Shown: positions 47,695-60,047 of the stretch, in pieces | Layout: each line of letters starts with the position of its first letter | Numbering within the stretch: the stretch's first letter is position 1 | Origin: Euryhalocaulis caribicus | GTDB lineage: Bacteria > Pseudomonadota > Alphaproteobacteria > Caulobacterales > Maricaulaceae | Assembly: GCF_000412185.1 (NCBI RefSeq) | Contig: NZ_ASJA01000011.1 | Coordinates: 1-64,000 of the forward strand | Direction of reading: 5' to 3' | DNA length: 64,000 bases | The notes under the pieces: generated by a model | What the model was told of the DNA's origin: nothing | Database searches by the model: none | What the model saw: only the letters and a program-made list of their open reading frames with translations | Program-made: the position numbers and the translations under genes

Positions 47695-47881
47695 CCGATC
47701 CCCGATTCCAACGGGGACAAACAAACGATCCCCATGCGGGGATGATTAAAAGAGCCGCATTTAGGGCTGATTCAACAAGGAATTAGCAGCGTCGTAGTGT
47801 AGCGTGCAATGACAGGGACACGGCGGTGCGGGATGCTGCTATACTCTGTAACTTCCATTCTGTTTGTCGAACGGGGATGAA

Positions 47882-48994
47882 ATGCGACTCGCCGTCTACA
47901 ATGTGGAGAACCTTTTCGACCGTGCGAAGGCGATGAACCTGGACACATGGGCCGAAGGTCGTCCGGTTCTCGAGAGGTTTGCCGCATTGAACGGCTTGCT
48001 CGGCCAAGTAGCGTACAGCGCGGCAGATAAAGGGAAGATGGCCAAGCTAATCATTGAGCTTGGAATGGAAAAGTCCGACACCGGTCCGTTCGTCCTTTTG
48101 CGCCGAAATAGAGGTGGACTGCTAAAGCGCCCGAAATCGGGTGGCGTTGAGATTACTGCTGATGGCCGCGCCGACTGGGTTGGGACTCTGGAACTGCGGG
48201 ACGAACCTATCAACGAGCACGCCATGCGCAACACTGCACGGGTCATGAGCGATCTTGAGGCAGACGTGTTGGGCGTGGTGGAAGCCGAGAGTCGACCAGT
48301 GCTTTCCGCGTTCAATCGAGAGATTCTTCCCGCGGTGGATGGTAGTCCATTTCGACACGTCATGGTCATTGACGGCAATGACGAACGGGGCATTGACGTT
48401 GGGCTGATGTGTCGTGAGGGCTTTCCAATCGGGTCCATGCGCAGCCATGTCGATGACCGCACTCCGGATGGTCAAACAATCTTCTCGCGAGACTGTCCGG
48501 AGTTCGAGGTGACGACGCCCGCGGGAGCGAGACTGGTCGTCATGGTCAATCATCTCAAGAGCAAGGGATATGGTGGGAAAGCTGCATCGGATGCCCGTCG
48601 CCGCCTGCAGGCTGAGCGGGTCGCTCAGATCTACACCAGCTTGATCGATCAAGGTGTTGAATACGTCGCTGTCGTAGGTGACTTCAATGACACGCCCGAC
48701 AGCAGTCCACTGGCTCCCCTCGTCGGAGAATCATCGCTAACTGACATCTTCGAGCATGACGCGTTCGACGATGGCGGTTACAGCGGGACTTACGGCTTGT
48801 GCAATGCTTCAAACAAGATTGACTACATGCTCCTCTCGCCCGCGCTCCTGGCAAAGGTTGAGAAGGGTGGCGTATTTCGCAAAGGCATGTGGCCGGGGTC
48901 ACGACCAAAGCGATGGGACACCTATTCGGAACTGGAACGGCCGAGAGACGCAGGCTCCGATCACGCAGCCTTATGGGCTGACCTAAATATCTGA
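47882..48994 (+). CDS. Endonuclease/exonuclease/phosphatase-family protein (cargo)
   Basis: A 370-residue EEP-fold enzyme with all metal and catalytic motifs: YNVENLF (Asn), VVEAE (Glu), VNHLKSK (His), VVGDFNDTP (Asp/Asn), NKIDYMLLS and GSDHAALWA (Asp/His). EEP proteins cleave DNA, RNA or phosphoesters; no signal peptide is seen. It lies between trbB and the CopG-like gene, opposite in direction and lower in GC, so it is a moron-type insertion in the transfer backbone. The ATG at 47882 follows GGGGAT. Substrate unknown. Confidence 0.88.
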   Translation: MRLAVYNVENLFDRAKAMNLDTWAEGRPVLERFAALNGLLGQVAYSAADKGKMAKLIIELGMEKSDTGPFVLLRRNRGGLLKRPKSGGVEITADGRADWVGTLELRDEPINEHAMRNTARVMSDLEADVLGVVEAESRPVLSAFNREILPAVDGSPFRHVMVIDGNDERGIDVGLMCREGFPIGSMRSHVDDRTPDGQTIFSRDCPEFEVTTPAGARLVVMVNHLKSKGYGGKAASDARRRLQAERVAQIYTSLIDQGVEYVAVVGDFNDTPDSSPLAPLVGESSLTDIFEHDAFDDGGYSGTYGLCNASNKIDYMLLSPALLAKVEKGGVFRKGMWPGSRPKRWDTYSELERPRDAGSDHAALWADLNI

Positions 48995-49450
48995 CTCCAT
49001 GCTCGACCTGCCGAAGGACGCCGGAGTATCGTGTCCCGGCATGTCCTCCGATATCTCCTGCCGGAGCTTCGGTCCCTTCGCTAGGCGGCGGCCAAGCGCA
49101 GTAATGAACGCCTCGTAGCGTTCTGCGGCTTTGGCACGGGCAGCCTGGGCAGCTGGTTCAGGCAGGGCCGGCGTCGTGGTCAGCCAGAACCGAATGAAGA
49201 CGGCAAGCGTCTCGACGGAAATCCCAAGATCGCGTTCCAGACGGGTCATGCGGCGATCAATCTGATCCAGCCTTTTGGCGAGGACGGCCTCACGCCTTTC
49301 GGCATCGTCCGGCGAGAGGAAGGACGCGATCGCCGCCTCAGCGATCGTCGACTGCGATTGTTCGCGACGCGCCGCAAAGTCCGCGAGCATCGTCATTATG
49401 TCCGGATCGAGATAGACGGAGATCTGTGTCTTTTTCCTGCGGCCGGGCAT
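48983..49450 (-). CDS. CopG/RHH-like conjugation accessory protein
   Basis: A 155-residue protein. The N-terminus is a ribbon-helix-helix (TQISVYLDPDIMTMLADFAA then EQSQSTIAEAAIASFLS). The C-terminal half carries a long helix (LAKRLDQIDRRMTRLERDLG). It lies 4 nt from traG, as in other Trb ICEs, and may act at oriT or as regulator. It overlaps the EEP gene 3' end by 12 nt. Confidence 0.88.
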   Translation of the reverse strand: MPGRRKKTQISVYLDPDIMTMLADFAARREQSQSTIAEAAIASFLSPDDAERREAVLAKRLDQIDRRMTRLERDLGISVETLAVFIRFWLTTTPALPEPAAQAARAKAAERYEAFITALGRRLAKGPKLRQEISEDMPGHDTPASFGRSSMESDI

Positions 49451-49453
49451 GGG

Positions 49454-51439
49454 CTAAAGATCCATTCCGTCCTTCGGGTCGAGCGAGACCTGCCGCGCCA
49501 CCCGTTGCATCGTGCGGTTCATCCGGCTGTTGCACGCGGCTTCTTCCTGATCGTCATCGAGGGGATCGATCTCGAACTCGTTTTCGATGGGCTCCTTCTT
49601 CTCAACGGGTTGGGTGCGGCTAAGCTCCGGCTGGCGCCGCCGTTCGGAATCGGTGGTGTCCTCCTCGTCGCCAGCGCTGCCAGCGCTACTGGCGTGAAGC
49701 GTCGGCTTAGGCGGCAACGGCAGCGTGCTCCATTCGTCTTTTTCGGTCTCGGCAGACTCTGCTCTGGACGGTGGGGGCAGAATCCGGTTCTGGAAACGCC
49801 GGTCCTCATAGTAGCGAACCTTCTTGGCGCGGATCGGCGATGTGCCGGCGACCATGACGATTTCGTCTGCCGGCGGAAGCTGCATGACCTCACCGGGCGT
49901 CAGAAGCGGCCGCGCGGTTTCCTGGCGTGATACCATAAGATGACCGAGCCAGGGCGAGAGCCTGTGTCCGGCATAGTTCTTCATCGCCCGCATTTCGGTT
50001 GCCGTGCCGAGCGCATCGGACACGCGCTTGGCGGTGCGTTCGTCATTGGTCGCGAAACTCACCCGTACGTGGCAATTGTCGAGGATCGAATTGTTCGGCC
50101 CGTAGGCCTTCTCGATCTGGTTCAGCGACTGCGCGATCAGGAAGCTCTTGAGCCCGTAGCCTGCCATGAAGGCGAGCGCGCTTTCGAAGAAGTCGAGGCG
50201 GCCGAGCGCGGGAAACTCGTCCAGCATCAGCAGTAGCTTGTGCCGCGTGGTCTTGGCCTGCAGGTCTTCGGTCAGACGCCGGCCGATCTGGTTGAGGATC
50301 AAACGGATGAGGGGCTTGGTGCGATTGATGTCGGAGGGCGGTACGACGAGATAGAGCGTCGCCGGGCGCTTGCCGGCGACCATATCGGCGATGCGCCAAT
50401 CGCAGCGGCGCGTCACTTTGGCGACAACGGGATCGCGGTAGAGCCCGAGAAACGACATTGCCGTGGAGAGGACACCGGAGCGCTCGTTGTCCGACTTGTT
50501 GAGGAGTTCACGGGCCGCGCTGGCGATGACCGGGTGTGGACCGGCTTCGCCCAGATGCGCTGTCTTCATCATGGCGGCGAGCGTGGATTCGATGGGGCGC
50601 TTGGGATCGGACAGGAAGGCTGCGACGCCGGCGAGCGTCTTGTCCTTCTCGGCATAGAGGACATGGAGAATGGCGCCGACCAGGAGCGCGTGGCTGGTTT
50701 TCTCCCAGTGATTGCGCTTTTCCAGCGAGCCTTCAGGATCGACGAGGATGTCGGCGATGTTCTGGACGTCGCGGACTTCCCATTCACCGCGGCGAACTTC
50801 GAGCAACGGATTGTAGGCGGAGGACTCGGGGTTGGTTGGATCGAACAGGAGCACGCGGCCGTGCCGGGCTCGAAAGCCTGCCGTGAGCTGCCAATTCTCG
50901 CCCTTGATGTCGTGGACGATGGCCGAGCCCGGCCAGGTCAGCAGCGAGGGTATAACAAGGCCGACGCCCTTACCCGAGCGGGTCGGCGCGAAGCACAGAA
51001 CATGCTCGGGGCCGTCGTGGCGTAGATAGTCTCCCTTTAGCTTGCCAAGCACCACACCGTCGGGACCGAGCAGGCCGGCGGCGTTCACCTCATCGGGTTT
51101 CGCCCAACGCGCTGATCCGTAGGTATCGACACTTTGCGCCTCGCGAGCACGCCAGACAGACATGAGGATTGCGGTTGCGATTGCGATGAAGCCGCCGGAC
51201 GCTGCGATGACGGCGCCCTCGATGAAGATCGGCGGCGCATAGGCATCGTAGAAATACCACCACCAGAAGAAGGCCGGCGGATAGTATATCGGCCAGCCCG
51301 ATATATCGAACCAAGGCGTGCCGAGTTGCGGCTGAAAGCCGAGACGCCAGGCGGTCCACTGCGTCGCCGCCCAAGTGGTGATGAGGACGATCGTGAAAAC
51401 GATGAGGATTTGTCCCCATAGGATTTTCGTACCCGACAT
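49454..51439 (-). CDS. traG: TraG/VirD4-like type IV coupling protein
   Basis: A 661-residue inner-membrane ATPase that links the relaxase-DNA complex to the Trb channel. Membrane helices lie at about residues 8-30 and 65-95. Walker A is FAPTRSGKGVGLVIPSLLTW and Walker B is LLLMLDEFPALGRLDFFESA. The acidic C-terminal tail may recognise the relaxase. Expected length. Confidence 0.96.
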   Translation of the reverse strand: MSGTKILWGQILIVFTIVLITTWAATQWTAWRLGFQPQLGTPWFDISGWPIYYPPAFFWWWYFYDAYAPPIFIEGAVIAASGGFIAIATAILMSVWRAREAQSVDTYGSARWAKPDEVNAAGLLGPDGVVLGKLKGDYLRHDGPEHVLCFAPTRSGKGVGLVIPSLLTWPGSAIVHDIKGENWQLTAGFRARHGRVLLFDPTNPESSAYNPLLEVRRGEWEVRDVQNIADILVDPEGSLEKRNHWEKTSHALLVGAILHVLYAEKDKTLAGVAAFLSDPKRPIESTLAAMMKTAHLGEAGPHPVIASAARELLNKSDNERSGVLSTAMSFLGLYRDPVVAKVTRRCDWRIADMVAGKRPATLYLVVPPSDINRTKPLIRLILNQIGRRLTEDLQAKTTRHKLLLMLDEFPALGRLDFFESALAFMAGYGLKSFLIAQSLNQIEKAYGPNNSILDNCHVRVSFATNDERTAKRVSDALGTATEMRAMKNYAGHRLSPWLGHLMVSRQETARPLLTPGEVMQLPPADEIVMVAGTSPIRAKKVRYYEDRRFQNRILPPPSRAESAETEKDEWSTLPLPPKPTLHASSAGSAGDEEDTTDSERRRQPELSRTQPVEKKEPIENEFEIDPLDDDQEEAACNSRMNRTMQRVARQVSLDPKDGMDL

Positions 51440-51615: not shown

Positions 51616-52434
51616 TCAGCTACGCGCTCTCGAGGCGTCGATCTCCGCTGCTAGCTGTTGGCACTTGGCGCTTGCCCATTCGTGCGCATCGGCGCCGAAC
51701 AGGAGTCGCCGCGCAGGGTCGGGAACCGCCGCTTCGGCGATGATCTGGGCCGCGAGCGCCTCGGGGTCGTTTTGCTGCGCGCCGTTCGCTTGCGTGATGA
51801 AGGTTCGGAAAGCGGCCACCGCCTCAGCATAGTCCGCAATGTCTTCCGCGCCCTGCCGAGCCGTGGACGGATCGAGAAAGTTCGTGCGCATCATCCCCGG
51901 CTCCACGATGAGAGAGCGGATACCGAGCGGTGCGATCTCTTCGGCGACGCCTTCCATCCAGCCTTCGAGCGCGAACTTGGACGCCGAGTAGACCGATCCG
52001 CCGGGGTTTGAGACGAGGCCGTTCACCGAGGAGATAGTGACCACGAGGCCCGAGCGCTGCCGGCGCATCGTCGGCAGCACCGCGCGCGCCACGTTCATCG
52101 CCCCGAAGAGGTTGATCTCGAACTGTCGGCGCACGTCCTCGTCCTGGATCGTCTCGAACCATCCGAGCTGCGCGCGACCGGCGTTGTTGACCAATATGTC
52201 GATCCGCCCGAATGCATCAATGGCCGCGTCATGCGCAGCCGACGCTGCCCGGGCATCGGTCACGTCGAGCGGCAGCACGAGCAGGCTATCATTTGGAGCG
52301 GAGAGGCGTTCTGCGAGCCCGTCTACGGTCTGGCTGGTCGCCACGACCTTGTCGCCAGCGCGCAGTGCATCGCGGGCGAGCAGATATCCCAGGCCTCTGC
52401 CGGCCCCGGTGATGAACCATACCTTCTCAGTCAC
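51616..52434 (-). CDS. Short-chain dehydrogenase/reductase (cargo)
   Basis: A 272-residue SDR: WFITGAGRGLGYLLARDALR cofactor motif, DILVNNAGRAQ, catalytic Ser in VTISSVNGLV and YSASKFALEGWMEGVAEE (Tyr/Lys). Divergent from the LysR gene at 52533, which probably controls it. The pair splits the traG-relaxase junction. A remnant of a close relative lies at 35770-35993. Confidence 0.93.
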   Translation of the reverse strand: MTEKVWFITGAGRGLGYLLARDALRAGDKVVATSQTVDGLAERLSAPNDSLLVLPLDVTDARAASAAHDAAIDAFGRIDILVNNAGRAQLGWFETIQDEDVRRQFEINLFGAMNVARAVLPTMRRQRSGLVVTISSVNGLVSNPGGSVYSASKFALEGWMEGVAEEIAPLGIRSLIVEPGMMRTNFLDPSTARQGAEDIADYAEAVAAFRTFITQANGAQQNDPEALAAQIIAEAAVPDPARRLLFGADAHEWASAKCQQLAAEIDASRARS

Positions 52435-52515
52435 TGTAACCTCCTCTTGGCTTGCCGATCTGATATTAGCTCATCGATGCTGTGCGCGATTAGTGCTTGG
52501 GAATTTATTAGATCA

Positions 52516-52530
52516 AGTAGTAGAGCTACT
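52516..52530. promoter_or_regulatory. Inverted repeat before LysR start
   Basis: AGTAG-TAGAG-CTACT immediately upstream of the LysR ATG in the 98-bp divergent region. Spacing and position fit an autoregulatory LysR half-site pair, but only symmetry supports this. Confidence 0.4.
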
Positions 52531-52532
52531 GA

Positions 52533-53441
52533 ATGGATCCTCGTAAGTTCTCCGATCTCGTCATCTTCCATCGCGTCGCCGCTGAGGGCAGTTTCACCGC
52601 CGCGGCACGCACCCTCGGAGTGACCCAGTCCGCCGTCAGCCAGACGGTGAAGCGTCTCGAGGGCGATCTGGGGATCAGGTTGTTGTCCCGCTCGACACGC
52701 AGCCTTACCCCGACCGCGGCGGGAGAGCGGCTGCTGGACACGCTCACCCCGGTGATCGCGGAGATCGATGCAGAGATCGAGGATCTGGAACAGTTGCGCG
52801 AGCAACCTGGCGGACGTCTGCGGGTGACCTGCGGCAAACACGCTGCCGATACGCTCGTCTGGCCGGCCTTCTCACGGCTGATCGCGGCGCATCCCGAGAT
52901 CGAGGGAGAACTGAGCGTGGAGAACCGGTATGTCGATATCGTCGCAGAGCGGTTCGACATCGGGATACGTCTGCGCGAGGATCTGGAGATGGACATGATC
53001 GCGGTGCCCGTGGGTCCTCCCCTGAGAGCAGTCGTCGTGGGGGCGGCGGGTTATCTGGATACCTGCGATCCACCGCGCGCGCCGCGCCAGCTCTCGGCGC
53101 ATCGCTGCATAGGTTACAGAAATGCCGGAGGCACCCTGTCGCAGTGGTCGTTCGAAAAGGATGGGCATGCGGAGACAGTGAAGGTCTCGCCGTCCGTTAT
53201 CGTCAACGATGGTGACGCACTTGTGGCGGCAGCCTTCATGGGGATGGGCTTGGCCTACATGCTTGAGGACCTCGCCGCGCCCGCCCTTAAAGATGGTCGT
53301 CTTGTTGAAGTCCTTCCCGACTGGTGTCCCCGGTTTCCAGGCTATCATGCTTTCTATTCGAGCCGACGCCAGCCGACCCGCGCCTTCTCGTTGTTTCTCG
53401 AGAGCCTAAGGCAGGAGAGCAGGGAGAGAACTTTAGAGTAG
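52533..53441 (+). CDS. LysR-family regulator (cargo)
   Basis: A 302-residue regulator: HTH RVAAEGSFTAAARTLGVTQS then AVSQTVKRLEGDLGIRLLSR, effector domain with ENRYVDIVAERFDIGIRLRE. Divergent from the SDR gene. Same subgroup as the 33940 regulator but clearly different sequence. Confidence 0.93.
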   Translation: MDPRKFSDLVIFHRVAAEGSFTAAARTLGVTQSAVSQTVKRLEGDLGIRLLSRSTRSLTPTAAGERLLDTLTPVIAEIDAEIEDLEQLREQPGGRLRVTCGKHAADTLVWPAFSRLIAAHPEIEGELSVENRYVDIVAERFDIGIRLREDLEMDMIAVPVGPPLRAVVVGAAGYLDTCDPPRAPRQLSAHRCIGYRNAGGTLSQWSFEKDGHAETVKVSPSVIVNDGDALVAAAFMGMGLAYMLEDLAAPALKDGRLVEVLPDWCPRFPGYHAFYSSRRQPTRAFSLFLESLRQESRERTLE

Positions 53442-53509: not shown

Positions 53510-55249
53510 TCACCTCCCCAACCCCCGCTTGCGGCCGAAGCTCCAGTCGACGCCGCCGTCGCCGCGCGCGACGCCGGAGATGTGGCGACCGAGATGTTTC
53601 TCCATCGACGGCGTCCAGGGCACGAGTTGGAAGCCGAGACCGTCGTCGATCATCGCGAAGCGGCCCGAGGCGAGCGTCAGACGCTGGCGATAGGCGCCGG
53701 CGACGTGTTCGCCGTTCCCGGCGTACTGGAACGGTTGCCCGGTCTTCGCCGCCAGCTTCTCGCCGACTTCGTCCACCTCGCGCCGGCGCAGCGTGTCAAT
53801 GAGATTGCGACTGAAGACGATGCGCCGACTCTGCCGCTCGGCGAAGCCTTCCCCGATTAGATGGTCCGCCCGCCGGTCGAGAGCACCGCGCACTTCGGCA
53901 CCGAAGCCGCTTTCGGAGAGCGCAGCGGGCTCGCGCGCGATGTTCTGCCGGTCGAGCCAGGTCGCCCCAGACGCGGTCACTTGGCGTTCGATGTCGAGAT
54001 CGGAACGCACCGCGAGGGCGACGCGGCGGTTCCCGCGGGAATCGTCATAGGCGCGCAGCTCGACGATCGAGCCCGGCGTGCTGTCGCCGGCGGCATTGAG
54101 ATCGGCGAGCTTGATGTGGTGACTCCGTCCATCAACGCCATCGACCACGGCATAGGCTGTGCACTTGAGCTCGTCGTCGAGGCCGCGCTCGACCAGACGC
54201 CCGACGATGGGCGCGTCGAGGCTTTCGGCCGCCAGCACGTAATGCGTCGAGGCGCGCTCGATGCCGCGATCGGTCAGGGCGCGATGCATGCGCTTGACGA
54301 TGTCGCCGCGCTCGCCGAGTTCGCGCAACGTCGCCTCGGCCCTGTCACCGATCATCCATTGACCGGGGCCAACCTGCTCGGCAATGCCCAGCGTCTCCAG
54401 CTTGCGCAGCCGCCCGACCTTCAGCGCATGGAATGCGTCGGGCTGTTCGCCCGGCTGCGGGGCGAGGTCGATGATTCCGGTGCGCCGGCCGTCGCGCACG
54501 AGTTGACGGTCGAGTTGGGTCCAGCGCTCGGTCTCGATCTGGCTTTCGAGGGTGCGGCGAATATCGAGATCGGTGCGCGGGCCTAGCTCCTGGGTGATGA
54601 GATCGCGCGCCCGGTCGCGCATGCCTTCCTTGATATAGTCGCGAGCGATGACGAGGTCCTCGCCGTCGTCGCGTTTGCCGCGCACGATCAGATGGACATG
54701 CGGGTGTTCGGTGTTCCAGTGATCGACGGCCACCCAGTCGAGTTCGGTGCCGAGATCCTTCTCCATCTGCCCGACCAGATCGTTGGTGAAGGATCTGAGG
54801 TCGGACATCTCCAGCGCGTCGTCGGGCGAGACGATGAAGCGGAAATGATGCCGGTCGTCATCGCAGCGTTCGGTGAATGCCCTGCCGTCGGCTTCTTCCT
54901 CTCCCGGCCCGAACAGGCTCGCCTTCTCCCCGTCCCGTGTGACGCCGTCGCGGCGTAGATAGTCGATATGGGTGCCCAGCGGCGCGGCGCGGGCGGAATG
55001 GCGAACCACGCGCGCCTTAATGACCGCGCCGCGCGAGCGCGCGGAGATGAGGCGATTGGCCTGGATGCTGGCGCGCTGGCCGTGGCCGAACCGCGAGCGG
55101 TTGCCGGAGGTGATGCGCCCGGATCGCGACACGCCGCCGCCCGCCTTCTTCGCGGCCGCCAGCGCCTGGGCGATGAAGGGACGCGCCTGCTGCGCACGGG
55201 TCGAGCGGATGCGACCAGGGCGAACGCGGAACTCGTGATCATCGGCCAT
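53510..55249 (-). CDS. Relaxase/mobilization nuclease (VirD2-like, DUF3363)
   Basis: A 579-residue relaxase that nicks oriT and leads the strand into the recipient. The N-terminal half carries the three-His motif region DWVAVDHWNTEHPHVHLIVR, with HxH metal ligands; SRGAVIKARVVRHSARAAPL is the conserved N-terminal part with a Tyr in HIDYLRRDGVTRDGEKA. The C-terminal half is DUF3363-like (HYVLAAESLDAPIVGRLVER; GSIVELRAYDD). The ATG at 55249 has GGAG upstream and a conserved start MADDHEFRVRPGRIRS. The candidate oriT lies about 110 bp upstream. Confidence 0.95.
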   Translation of the reverse strand: MADDHEFRVRPGRIRSTRAQQARPFIAQALAAAKKAGGGVSRSGRITSGNRSRFGHGQRASIQANRLISARSRGAVIKARVVRHSARAAPLGTHIDYLRRDGVTRDGEKASLFGPGEEEADGRAFTERCDDDRHHFRFIVSPDDALEMSDLRSFTNDLVGQMEKDLGTELDWVAVDHWNTEHPHVHLIVRGKRDDGEDLVIARDYIKEGMRDRARDLITQELGPRTDLDIRRTLESQIETERWTQLDRQLVRDGRRTGIIDLAPQPGEQPDAFHALKVGRLRKLETLGIAEQVGPGQWMIGDRAEATLRELGERGDIVKRMHRALTDRGIERASTHYVLAAESLDAPIVGRLVERGLDDELKCTAYAVVDGVDGRSHHIKLADLNAAGDSTPGSIVELRAYDDSRGNRRVALAVRSDLDIERQVTASGATWLDRQNIAREPAALSESGFGAEVRGALDRRADHLIGEGFAERQSRRIVFSRNLIDTLRRREVDEVGEKLAAKTGQPFQYAGNGEHVAGAYRQRLTLASGRFAMIDDGLGFQLVPWTPSMEKHLGRHISGVARGDGGVDWSFGRKRGLGR

Positions 55250-55362
55250 GGCATCGCTCCGCAATGTGCAGAAAAGACAGAAAATCCGTGAAGTTGAGCA
55301 CTCCGCGCACATTGCGGCGAGGCTGGGCAATGTGCGGAACGCGCCAAAAAAACCTGCAAAAA

Positions 55363-55418
55363 CAACCGACCGACCGGCACGCAAAGTGCGCCCTTTTATC
55401 CTGCCATCGGTCGGTTGT
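55363..55418. other. Candidate oriT with IncP/T-DNA-type nic site
   Basis: ACAACCGACCGA (55363-55374) and TCGGTCGGTTGT (55407-55418) form a perfect 12-bp inverted repeat. Within it lies TTTTATCCTGCC; TATCCTG (55397-55403) followed by C matches the YATCCTG/Y nick consensus of IncP plasmids and T-DNA borders, giving a predicted nick after G55403. A small GCAC-GCAAA-GTGC hairpin sits beside it. It lies just upstream of the relaxase gene. Confidence 0.75.
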
Positions 55419-55492: not shown

Positions 55493-56260
55493 TCATGGGT
55501 CAGCCCCCGTATCATCCTGCGCAATGAAGATGGTCTTCGGGTGGGAATGATCCTCGGTATCGCGCTGCACCGGCACGGAAGCAGAGGCGCCATCCGTCTG
55601 CTTGATTATGGCGCGGTACGCGACCGTCCGGCGGTCAACCGAGCGCGGGACGAACAGCGGCGCCTCGCGCCAGTCGGGTGGCGGTGACGGCGCAGCCGGA
55701 GCGCCGGGCGATGGCACCGTTGCGCCCAGCGCCGGTGCAAGCAGATCGACATAGGCGCGTGTTTCGGCGGGCAGCGGACGCCCCGTCGCGAGGTGCTCGT
55801 CATAGCGATCCGGACCCGCATTGTATGCCGCCAGCATTGCCGGGATCGTGCCGTAACGGTCGTACATCTCGCGCAGATAAGCCGCGCCCGCCAGGATGTT
55901 GTCGCGCGGATCGAAGGGATCGGTCCCGAGCCGATGTCGAACCCGTAGATCGTCCCAGGTCGCCGGCATGACCTGCATCAACCCCCGCGCGCCGGCATGG
56001 GAAACCGCGCGTGCGTTGCCTGCACTTTCGGCACGCATGACGACGATGATCCAGCGTTCCGGAATGCCGAACCGCTGCGCCGCCTCGGCGATATGGGCGG
56101 CAATGGGATCGCGGACTTCGTGTCGCCCGGCCGGCGCTGGCTGTGCGGATGCGCTGCCGATGTCGAGGGTGGTGATGACCAGGCCGGAAAGGAGAAGGAG
56201 GACGATGCGGCCGCAGGTGCCGCACCGCCGCGATGGTGCTGACGGACCGATGAGCGGCAT
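55493..56260 (-). CDS. Lytic transglycosylase (VirB1/TrbN-like)
   Basis: A 255-residue secreted enzyme that opens peptidoglycan for the mating channel. Signal peptide (about 1-40), then an SLT domain: catalytic Glu in VVMRAESAGNARAVSHAGAR, GLMQVMPATWDDLR, DPRDNILAGAAYLREMYDRY and AAYNAGPDRYDEH. The proline-rich C-terminal region is variable. Confidence 0.93.
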   Translation of the reverse strand: MPLIGPSAPSRRCGTCGRIVLLLLSGLVITTLDIGSASAQPAPAGRHEVRDPIAAHIAEAAQRFGIPERWIIVVMRAESAGNARAVSHAGARGLMQVMPATWDDLRVRHRLGTDPFDPRDNILAGAAYLREMYDRYGTIPAMLAAYNAGPDRYDEHLATGRPLPAETRAYVDLLAPALGATVPSPGAPAAPSPPPDWREAPLFVPRSVDRRTVAYRAIIKQTDGASASVPVQRDTEDHSHPKTIFIAQDDTGADP

Positions 56261-57193: not shown

Positions 57194-57711
57194 TGCTCGA
57201 TCTCCCGCCGCTTGAGCCACGCCTGGTGGCGCTCCCGCGTGTAGGGACGCGGCTCGTGGCCGGCGCTCATCCGGTGCGCCACATGGCGCCAGTGATCGGG
57301 GGCGGCGTCGCAGGGATCGACGTCGGCGGCTTCCACCGCGTCGATGTGCTGGAGCACCTTCTCGACCTTGGGCCAGCCTTCGATCTTGAGCAGGATTTCC
57401 CCGCCGGGGCGCACGAAGGGCAGCGTCTGGTAGGCGCTGCCGAGCTCGACGGCGCGCACGATGTCGATGCGCGAGATGACGGTGCCGTAGTCGTTGGCCG
57501 CCCATCGCACGAATGCAAAGACGGCGCCGGGGCGGAAGGATACGATGCGCCGGCGGCGATCCACGACGCGTTCGCCGACCTCATGGCCGAAGCGGATCCA
57601 GTATTCAATCCTGCCCTCGATCCAGGTCAGTTCGACATGGGTGTGCGCGTCGGTGTTATGGGCTAACGGCATCTGGCCGCCGCCAGCGCGGGACGCCGCG
57701 GTGCCGGTCAT
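57190..57711 (-). CDS. DUF2840 protein
   Basis: A 173-residue protein with LTWIEGRIEYWIRFGHEVGE, RRIVSFRPGAVFAFVRWAAN and YGTVISRIDIVRA, the DUF2840 signature found beside traF in Trb ICEs. No catalytic residues recognised. Overlaps its neighbours by 4 nt on both sides, so it is translated together with parA and traF. Confidence 0.88.
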   Translation of the reverse strand: MTGTAASRAGGGQMPLAHNTDAHTHVELTWIEGRIEYWIRFGHEVGERVVDRRRRIVSFRPGAVFAFVRWAANDYGTVISRIDIVRAVELGSAYQTLPFVRPGGEILLKIEGWPKVEKVLQHIDAVEAADVDPCDAAPDHWRHVAHRMSAGHEPRPYTRERHQAWLKRREIEQ

Positions 57712-57959
57712 TTGGAGTCTCCTTCGTCTGTCGGGAACTCACGGGCGAGCAGGTCGCGCAGCATGTCTGCGACAGTGACGCCGCTCTGGAAGGCGGCGAT
57801 CTTGATGCGCCCGCGCAGCTCGGGCGTGATGTCGACGGTCAGGCGTGCGGTGAATCCAGAGGGCTTGCCGTCACGGGGTGCGGCATCGGCGGACCTGATC
57901 CATTGCTCGGGATCGCCCGGTCTCGTGGCAAAGGCGCGACGGTTTGGGCGGTCGCTCAT
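57708..57959 (-). CDS. ParG-like ribbon-helix-helix partition protein
   Basis: An 83-residue protein. The C-terminal half FTARLTVDITPELRGRIKIA then GVTVADMLRDLLAREF fits a ribbon-helix-helix, the centromere-binding partner of small ParA proteins. The disordered N-terminus is typical. ATGA overlap with parA supports partner function. Confidence 0.75.
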   Translation of the reverse strand: MSDRPNRRAFATRPGDPEQWIRSADAAPRDGKPSGFTARLTVDITPELRGRIKIAAFQSGVTVADMLRDLLAREFPTDEGDSK

Positions 57960-58594
57960 GGTGCGAGCCTTCCGATCTCGGCCGCAAGCGCCGCCACTTC
58001 CCGCGCGGCGATGCTGTCCGCGTCGTACTCGCAAGCGAGGCGGCCGGACTGCGCGGCCGACGCAAAGATGACGCGCTGGCCGATCGTCGCGCGGAGCGCG
58101 GGCGGGTCCTGGTCGGCGAGCGCATCACCGGTCTCGCGCGCGATGATGGTTCGTGCCGGACAGCGGTTGAGGAGGAAGCGCACGGCGAGCTGCGGCCGGA
58201 ATATCCGTGCCTCCTCGATCAGGCGCAGGATCTCCGCCGAGGCCCAGCCATCGAAGGGTGACGGCTGCACCGGAATGAGGATGACGTCGGCGGCAAGTAG
58301 CGTCGAGCGCATCAGTCCCGCGACGCGCGGCGGACCGTCTATGACAATATGATCGGCAGAGCGGGCGAGTTCAGGCGCTTCGTGGTGGAGCGTATCCCGC
58401 GCCAAGCCAATGACGCCAAAGCGTCGCGGCAGACGCTCGTGGCTGCGCCGTTCGGACCAGTCGAGCGCCGATCCCTGCGGGTCGGCATCGATCAGGGTGA
58501 CGGTGCTTCCGCCTCGCGCCCATTCGCCGGCGAGGTGCAATGCGAGCGTTGTCTTGCCGACACCGCCTTTTTGATTGACGAACGCCGCAATCAT
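57956..58594 (-). CDS. parA: ParA-family partition ATPase
   Basis: A 212-residue deviant Walker ATPase: FVNQKGGVGKTTLALHLAGE (signature Lys), LIDADPQGSALDWSERR and IVIDGPPRVAGLMRS. It probably keeps the excised, replicating form of the element segregating. Overlaps repA and the RHH gene by 4 nt each. Confidence 0.94.
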   Translation of the reverse strand: MIAAFVNQKGGVGKTTLALHLAGEWARGGSTVTLIDADPQGSALDWSERRSHERLPRRFGVIGLARDTLHHEAPELARSADHIVIDGPPRVAGLMRSTLLAADVILIPVQPSPFDGWASAEILRLIEEARIFRPQLAVRFLLNRCPARTIIARETGDALADQDPPALRATIGQRVIFASAAQSGRLACEYDADSIAAREVAALAAEIGRLAP

Positions 58595-59774: not shown

Positions 59775-60047
59775 TCAGCGGTTCTCGGCTGACGACGGAT
59801 CGTCATGACGTTTGGCCGGAAGGACCGTACCGACGCCGGGGTCGGAGGTGGATCGCTTGGCGCCACGTTCCGCCCAGGCCTGCAGGTCATCGACGGCATA
59901 GACGACACGGCCACCGAGTTTGCGGTAGGCGGGACCGGTTCCGTAGGTTCGGTGTTTCTCGAGGGTTCGGGCGGAAAGGCTGAGAAAACGGGCCGCCTCG
60001 GGCGTTCTCAGATAGCGCGGCGGTATACCGGCGGTGGCTGCGGACAT
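59775..60047 (-). CDS. RdfS-like excisionase (MerR/AlpA-type HTH)
   Basis: A 90-residue protein with an HTH_17 winged helix: RYLRTPEAARFLSLSARTLE then GPAYRKLGGRVVYAVDDLQA. In ICEMlSym-type elements the same kind of protein at the same site (upstream of repA/traF genes) is RdfS, the recombination directionality factor whose expression triggers excision. Only context and domain support that name. Confidence 0.85.
   Translation of the reverse strand: MSAATAGIPPRYLRTPEAARFLSLSARTLEKHRTYGTGPAYRKLGGRVVYAVDDLQAWAERGAKRSTSDPGVGTVLPAKRHDDPSSAENR

Follow-up and report, generated by a model that had tools for sequence, protein, structure and literature searches.

The segment at positions 55362-55418 of the window, the 64,000-nucleotide stretch of Euryhalocaulis caribicus contig NZ_ASJA01000011.1 that was analysed, is very probably the origin of transfer (oriT) of a conjugative element of the RlxS/DUF3363 type. 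From sequence comparison across about 90 related elements we propose that a CopG/ribbon-helix-helix (RHH)-like protein encoded after traG, here called RHH2, acts as accessory factor and repressor at four copies of a short site, S1 to S4, and we put the probability of this whole model at about 0.8. ICEMlSymR7A already provides an example of an oriT upstream of rlxS, and staphylococcal plasmids provide examples of RHH accessory factors whose specificity turns on one residue. What is added here is a predicted accessory factor, four predicted operators and a candidate specificity residue.

The original prediction described a candidate oriT formed by a perfect 12-bp inverted repeat around a TATCCTG-type nick site. 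A repeat search confirmed the repeat, although it begins at 55362 and not at 55363, one base away from the start first given. The left arm, ACAACCGACCGA, occupies 55362-55373 (+) and the right arm, TCGGTCGGTTGT, 55407-55418 (+), with a spacer of 33 nt. The nick motif is also present inside the repeat, closer to the right arm, as TATCCTGC at 55397-55404 (+); here TATCCTG^C, which is kept in relatives, matches the consensus YATCCTG^Y (the caret marks the nick). From the P-type consensus, the nick is predicted between 55403 and 55404 of the + strand. The alignment also places an A-tract beside the left arm (55358-55362, +), a T-tract on the - strand and a possible terminator tail, of which columns A3-A5 and A7 are at least 90% conserved. 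The repeat does lie just upstream of the relaxase gene, whose start at 55249 (-) is 113 bp from the nearer arm. The nick motif alone carries little weight, since YATCCTGY has 13 matches in the window against 6.0 expected. Three perfect 12-mer repeats with a spacer of up to 40 occur in the window, and only that at 55362-55418 contains the nick motif. Across 300 dinucleotide shuffles, 0.65 repeats per window were obtained and the motif fell in the loop seven times in total, about 0.02 per window, in agreement with the claim that the combination is rare by chance. Because the site precedes a relaxase gene and is kept in relatives, an origin by chance is untenable.

Among the matches listed, we examined 80 loci from diverse alphaproteobacteria that encode relatives of the window relaxase (74-93% identity). 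Alignment of these related elements, again among the matches listed, retains the nick core in 79 of the 80, where GGC[AG][GA]GATAAA (opposite strand) stands 156-157 bp before the relaxase start codon. Invariant columns in an alignment of 73 sequences include TTTATC..GCC. The segment is directly upstream of the relaxase gene in a traF/msi107/rlxS-type cluster, an order conserved in related loci, and, as in an RlxS-type (MOBP) oriT, a P-type nick sequence adjoining a hairpin is conserved among relatives. The oriT assignment was thereby supported in every comparison made: the conserved core, the fixed distance and an equivalent at R7A-type loci. Naturally occurring variants of the core among relatives are TATCCTG, TATCTCG, TATCCCG and TATCTTG. 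Thus, the IncP-type consensus first invoked is matched at 55397-55404, but the nick is better described as P-type than as strictly IncP. The IncP (RP4) oriT has the nick consensus YATCCTG^Y, flanking repeats and the accessory proteins TraJ and TraK; the likeness seen here is that of the nick consensus, and the nick core varies in the window's family.

The window genome holds a single strong match to the oriT, and searches of 385 and 199 genomes gave only two clear matches without a nearby relaxase. These two, L189 (G436:C42:33646-33699; nick core TTTATCTGGCC) and L188 (G174:C49:4100-4152), keep the hairpin and a TTTTATC core and are probably decayed remnants. Orphan oriT copies acting as mimics were set aside on these grounds, and the pPDL2/pLB1 sphingomonad oriT was discarded as a comparator as it belongs to a different system.

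The relaxase (53510-55249, -; 579 aa) comprises a MobA/VirD2-like domain and DUF3363, is RlxS-like and keeps the histidine motif HWNTEHPHVH. It scores 589 bits against NCBIfam RlxS (NF041267), whose curated cut-off is 850, and is by that model a relative and not a member. Upstream, the - strand encodes a lytic transglycosylase in an msi107-like position (55493-56260, -), DUF736, a TraF peptidase, DUF2840, a small RHH-like protein, ParA, replication initiator A and an AlpA/RdfS-like helix-turn-helix protein. The last of these (HTH_17, 59775-60047) heads the operon and corresponds in position to rdfS, the excisionase gene of R7A. Downstream of the relaxase are traG, encoding the coupling protein (49454-51439, -), RHH2 and the trb genes. 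Relaxase, traG and RHH2 probably form one operon, since the relaxase-traG gap is below 100 bp in 61 of 71 relatives and RHH2 directly follows traG in all 71. Our scan detected no sigma-70-like promoter at the relaxase gene. In the window, relaxase and traG are separated at 51616-53441 by genes for an SDR oxidoreductase and a divergent LysR-type regulator, and SDR and LysR genes likewise follow the relaxase on a Mesorhizobium ciceri plasmid (L132); this gap appears to be an insertion hot spot. Between trbB and RHH2 (47864-48994) the opposite strand encodes a member of the endonuclease/exonuclease/phosphatase family, probably cargo.

Read along the nicked + strand, the oriT would consist of an outer arm, the inner hairpin S1 (55380-55390), CTTTTATCCTG^CC and the other outer arm. 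The 12-bp repeat had been taken as the key feature; it is present in the window but variable in relatives, where the arms pair over 4-13 bp. An extended outer stem was rejected as an essential part, some relatives retaining only ACCG/CGGT. The inner hairpin is near-universal among relatives and more constant than the outer arms, and the pair flanking it changes from GC to CG, a compensatory change, in 15 of 73 sequences. Comparison of the sequences thus points to the nick and the inner hairpin, not the perfect repeat, as the functional core. The outer arms pair better within their own element than when swapped (8.47 vs at most 7.99; 0 of 5000 permutations as high), in a test that corrects only in part for shared descent. 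Shuffled sequences fold less stably than the + strand does (z -4.9). RNAalifold did not recover the outer stem from the full alignment, because two lineages are one base out of register there.

The hairpin S1 (CGCAAAGTGCG, 55380-55390, +), located 5' of the nick, is the first copy of an 11-bp quasi-palindrome. Three further copies of its sequence extend across the relaxase leader and ribosome-binding site. S2 (GGCAATGTGCG, 55326-55336, +) was recognized as a recurrence of the hairpin sequence, and S3 (CGCAATGTGCG, 55306-55316, -) has the opposite orientation, its centre 20 bp from that of S2. S4 (CGCAATGTGCA, 55260-55270, +) lies at the ribosome-binding site of the relaxase gene and stops about 10 bp short of its ATG. 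The window contains only seven near-matches to the site: four within 131 bp and three scattered outside this cluster. All four sites occur at fixed offsets, in the orientations +, +, -, +, in 77 distinct upstream regions. Depending on the lineage, the site on the relaxase strand is CGCACATTGCG, CGCACGGTGCG or CGCGA(T/G)GTGCG, and the four copies change jointly between lineages and agree within one element. S1 differs from the other three sites of its own element by 1.27 mismatches, against a mean of 2.19 and a lowest value of 1.90 in 5000 permutations, which again leave part of the shared descent in place. Some members of the third lineage (CGCGA class) have a degenerate S3, and in L058 and L059 S1 has drifted to another type with S2-S4 unchanged. 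A distant relative, L158 (G092:C2), carries by eye four copies of an unrelated sequence, CCGGGACC, in the same layout; its RHH strand also differs (KVQTKVF).

RHH2 (48983-49450, -; 155 aa) has a glutamine at residue 9, within MPGRRKKTQISVYL. The window protein scores 14.9 bits against Pfam RHH_1, under the cut-off of 20.5, and RHH_1 matches 42 of 62 members of the RHH2 family at E up to 0.1. An AlphaFold model of moderate confidence (pTM 0.33) has an extended N-terminal segment followed by helices 16-29 and 33-45, an arrangement that, with the same moderate confidence, resembles ribbon-helix-helix proteins. None of the model's fold matches is significant, although many of the best ones are to chains such as CopG-DNA, Arc and NikA.

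Among 11 co-located proteins, RHH2 correlates best with site divergence (r 0.715), and its partial r given TraG and relaxase is 0.49, a value that none of 2000 permutations reached. Weaker correlations (r 0.25-0.40) led us to reject as binders the other RHH-like protein (57711-58034), DUF736, HTH, ParA, TraF, RPA and DUF2840. Site types were tabulated from the DNA before RHH2 was inspected, and the three-way class labels were fixed at the column-association step. Residue 9 of RHH2 is the sole column, out of 2787 from the 11 proteins, that fully predicts site class: glutamine (19) or proline (3) occurs with CGCAA, lysine (21) with CGCAC and arginine (27) with CGCGA. The next-best columns by MI/H are its two neighbours in the same predicted β-strand. 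Glutamine-adenine and lysine- or arginine-guanine contacts are known side-chain preferences, which the pairing of residues and bases in these classes fits. The sites in the oriT vary with residues of the RHH2 β-strand, as is the case for an RHH accessory factor.

On the relaxase+TraG tree, site class and residue 9 each change four times, and the residue predicts the class in every row. Three first-class elements with proline at residue 9 (L045, L046 and L054) are placed inside the second class on this tree. The association rests on few independent events, only four switches, and near-copies inflate the count. Eighteen further elements agree with the residue-9 rule, including one whose relaxase is only 53% identical; of these, L165 was read by eye, the identical L190 was omitted, and L133 and L134 are clear at the first site only. 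Five more distant elements (L135, L136, L153, L155 and L156) have arginine in the strand with different sites, and residue 9 is therefore not the whole code. Where the RHH2 strand of more distant elements is different (RLN), the sites differ too.

From the conservation, the fixed spacing, the joint change of the sites and the residue-9 association, all of which were computed, we infer binding, nicking, repression and assistance to the relaxase. This enzyme would bind the oriT region, cut after G55403 and, like P-type relaxases, stay on the 5' end at C55404. With the 5' end at 55404 leading, the relaxase, traG and trb genes would be the last to enter the recipient. An RHH2 dimer probably binds S1-S4 through its N-terminal β-strand. 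At S1, in the oriT hairpin, it may help to load the relaxase, and we lean towards RHH2 being a required accessory factor. Repression from S2-S4 of the relaxase operon, which in most relatives would also encode traG and RHH2 itself, is a reasonably likely further role.

If the oriT is real, the relaxase itself could bind the four repeats and repress its own gene, with RHH2 acting elsewhere. Relaxases do bind hairpins adjoining nic, and the middle of the relaxase (residues 210-400) tracks site divergence nearly as well as RHH2 does (r 0.707). However, no relaxase column fully predicts site class (best MI/H 0.68 vs 1.00 in RHH2), the partial correlation of the relaxase is below that of RHH2 (0.32 vs 0.42), and S1-S4 resemble double-stranded dyads, of which three stand well away from the nick; this reading is unlikely. 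It is more doubtful still that some unrelated regulator, with its gene elsewhere, uses S1-S4 as operators and that RHH2 is associated with them through linkage and shared descent only. The genes of one element do have a common history, and the tree contains only four class switches. Against this, TraG, although encoded between relaxase and RHH2, retains almost no association after correction (partial r 0.07), and the best three of the 2787 columns by MI/H all fall in the predicted DNA-contacting strand of RHH2.

The outer repeat and the T-run on the - strand could also be read as mainly an intrinsic terminator of the traF-transglycosylase operon upstream, with the nick-like motif in its loop incidental. 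A T-tract directly follows the arm in most relatives, arm mismatches on the - strand are more often G:T than A:C (7 vs 2), and the segment has a strong predicted RNA fold (z -5.3). The best-conserved bases are nevertheless those of the unpaired nick core, for which a terminator has no need, the outer arms pair over just 4-6 bp in many relatives, and a terminator scan gave only a weak five-pair terminator-like site at the segment, against 0.5 expected. We regard this explanation as highly improbable; the outer repeat may still serve as a terminator in a second role, beside the oriT and RHH2 sites that we favour.

The oriT of ICEMlSymR7A lies upstream of rlxS, between msi107 and rlxS, and is functional in mobilisation (Verdonk 2019, cited in PMC11963761); the order rdfS-traF-msi107-oriT-rlxS is that of the window. 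R7A-type rlxS loci, compared here in place of the R7A oriT itself, carry TTTATCTTG^CC behind a hairpin distinct from that of the window, at the equivalent place upstream of rlxS, whereas those examined are without the outer repeat and the four-site array. A further difference is that the window relaxase is a shorter relative and scores under the NCBIfam RlxS cut-off. The R7A-type loci L112, L113, L115, L116 and L119 share a conserved TGTCTGCACA about 25-40 bp downstream of the oriT hairpin, a motif absent from the window's clade. The mobilisation-proven oriT of ICEKKS102Tn4677 (Tn4371 family) likewise combines a conserved core with an inverted repeat in the intergenic region that precedes the relaxase gene, and an accessory factor has been suggested; this element is betaproteobacterial, however, and the proposed factor, TraR, is of the LysR type and not of the ribbon-helix-helix type (PMC11448139).

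The closest parallels for RHH2 come from known RHH proteins. SmpO of the pWBG749 family is an RHH accessory factor in which residue 7 of the β-strand switches oriT specificity and whose sites differ between subtypes, much as is predicted for RHH2. It belongs to staphylococcal plasmids with another relaxase; its gene lies between oriT and the relaxase gene, and it has two binding sites, whereas RHH2 has four predicted sites and its gene follows traG (PMC8136818). MobC of RA3 (IncU), to which RHH2 is likened by description, is an RHH auxiliary protein that works with a MobP relaxase; it stimulates transfer and represses the relaxase operon, but has a single operator, located in the promoter of the mobC-nic operon to which it belongs (PMC4175270). 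In Bradyrhizobium sp. SUTN9-2, deletion of copG1, which like RHH2 is downstream of traG and a DUF3363 virD2, raises traG1 and trbE1 expression; in the available part of that paper, CopG1 is studied as a symbiosis regulator, with no link to oriT or a binding site (PMC11201211).

RlxS/DUF3363 elements are widespread in alphaproteobacteria and include symbiosis islands. Our literature search gave nothing on their relaxosome other than the relaxase, and no paper joining DUF3363 with oriT in the library searched. If the model is right, a conserved gene annotated only as "CopG family regulator" would encode a relaxosome accessory factor and operon repressor, the sites and the specificity residue would be directly testable, and oriT sharing between elements would be predictable. 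On balance, we slightly favour the view that residue 9 (Q, K or R) sets an oriT recognition code across this large alphaproteobacterial family, in which a four-copy site is both accessory site and operator and each residue switch drew all four sites along. The single-residue oriT switch known in staphylococci would then have arisen in an unrelated family too, and the recognition code would define compatibility groups, deciding which elements mobilise one another.
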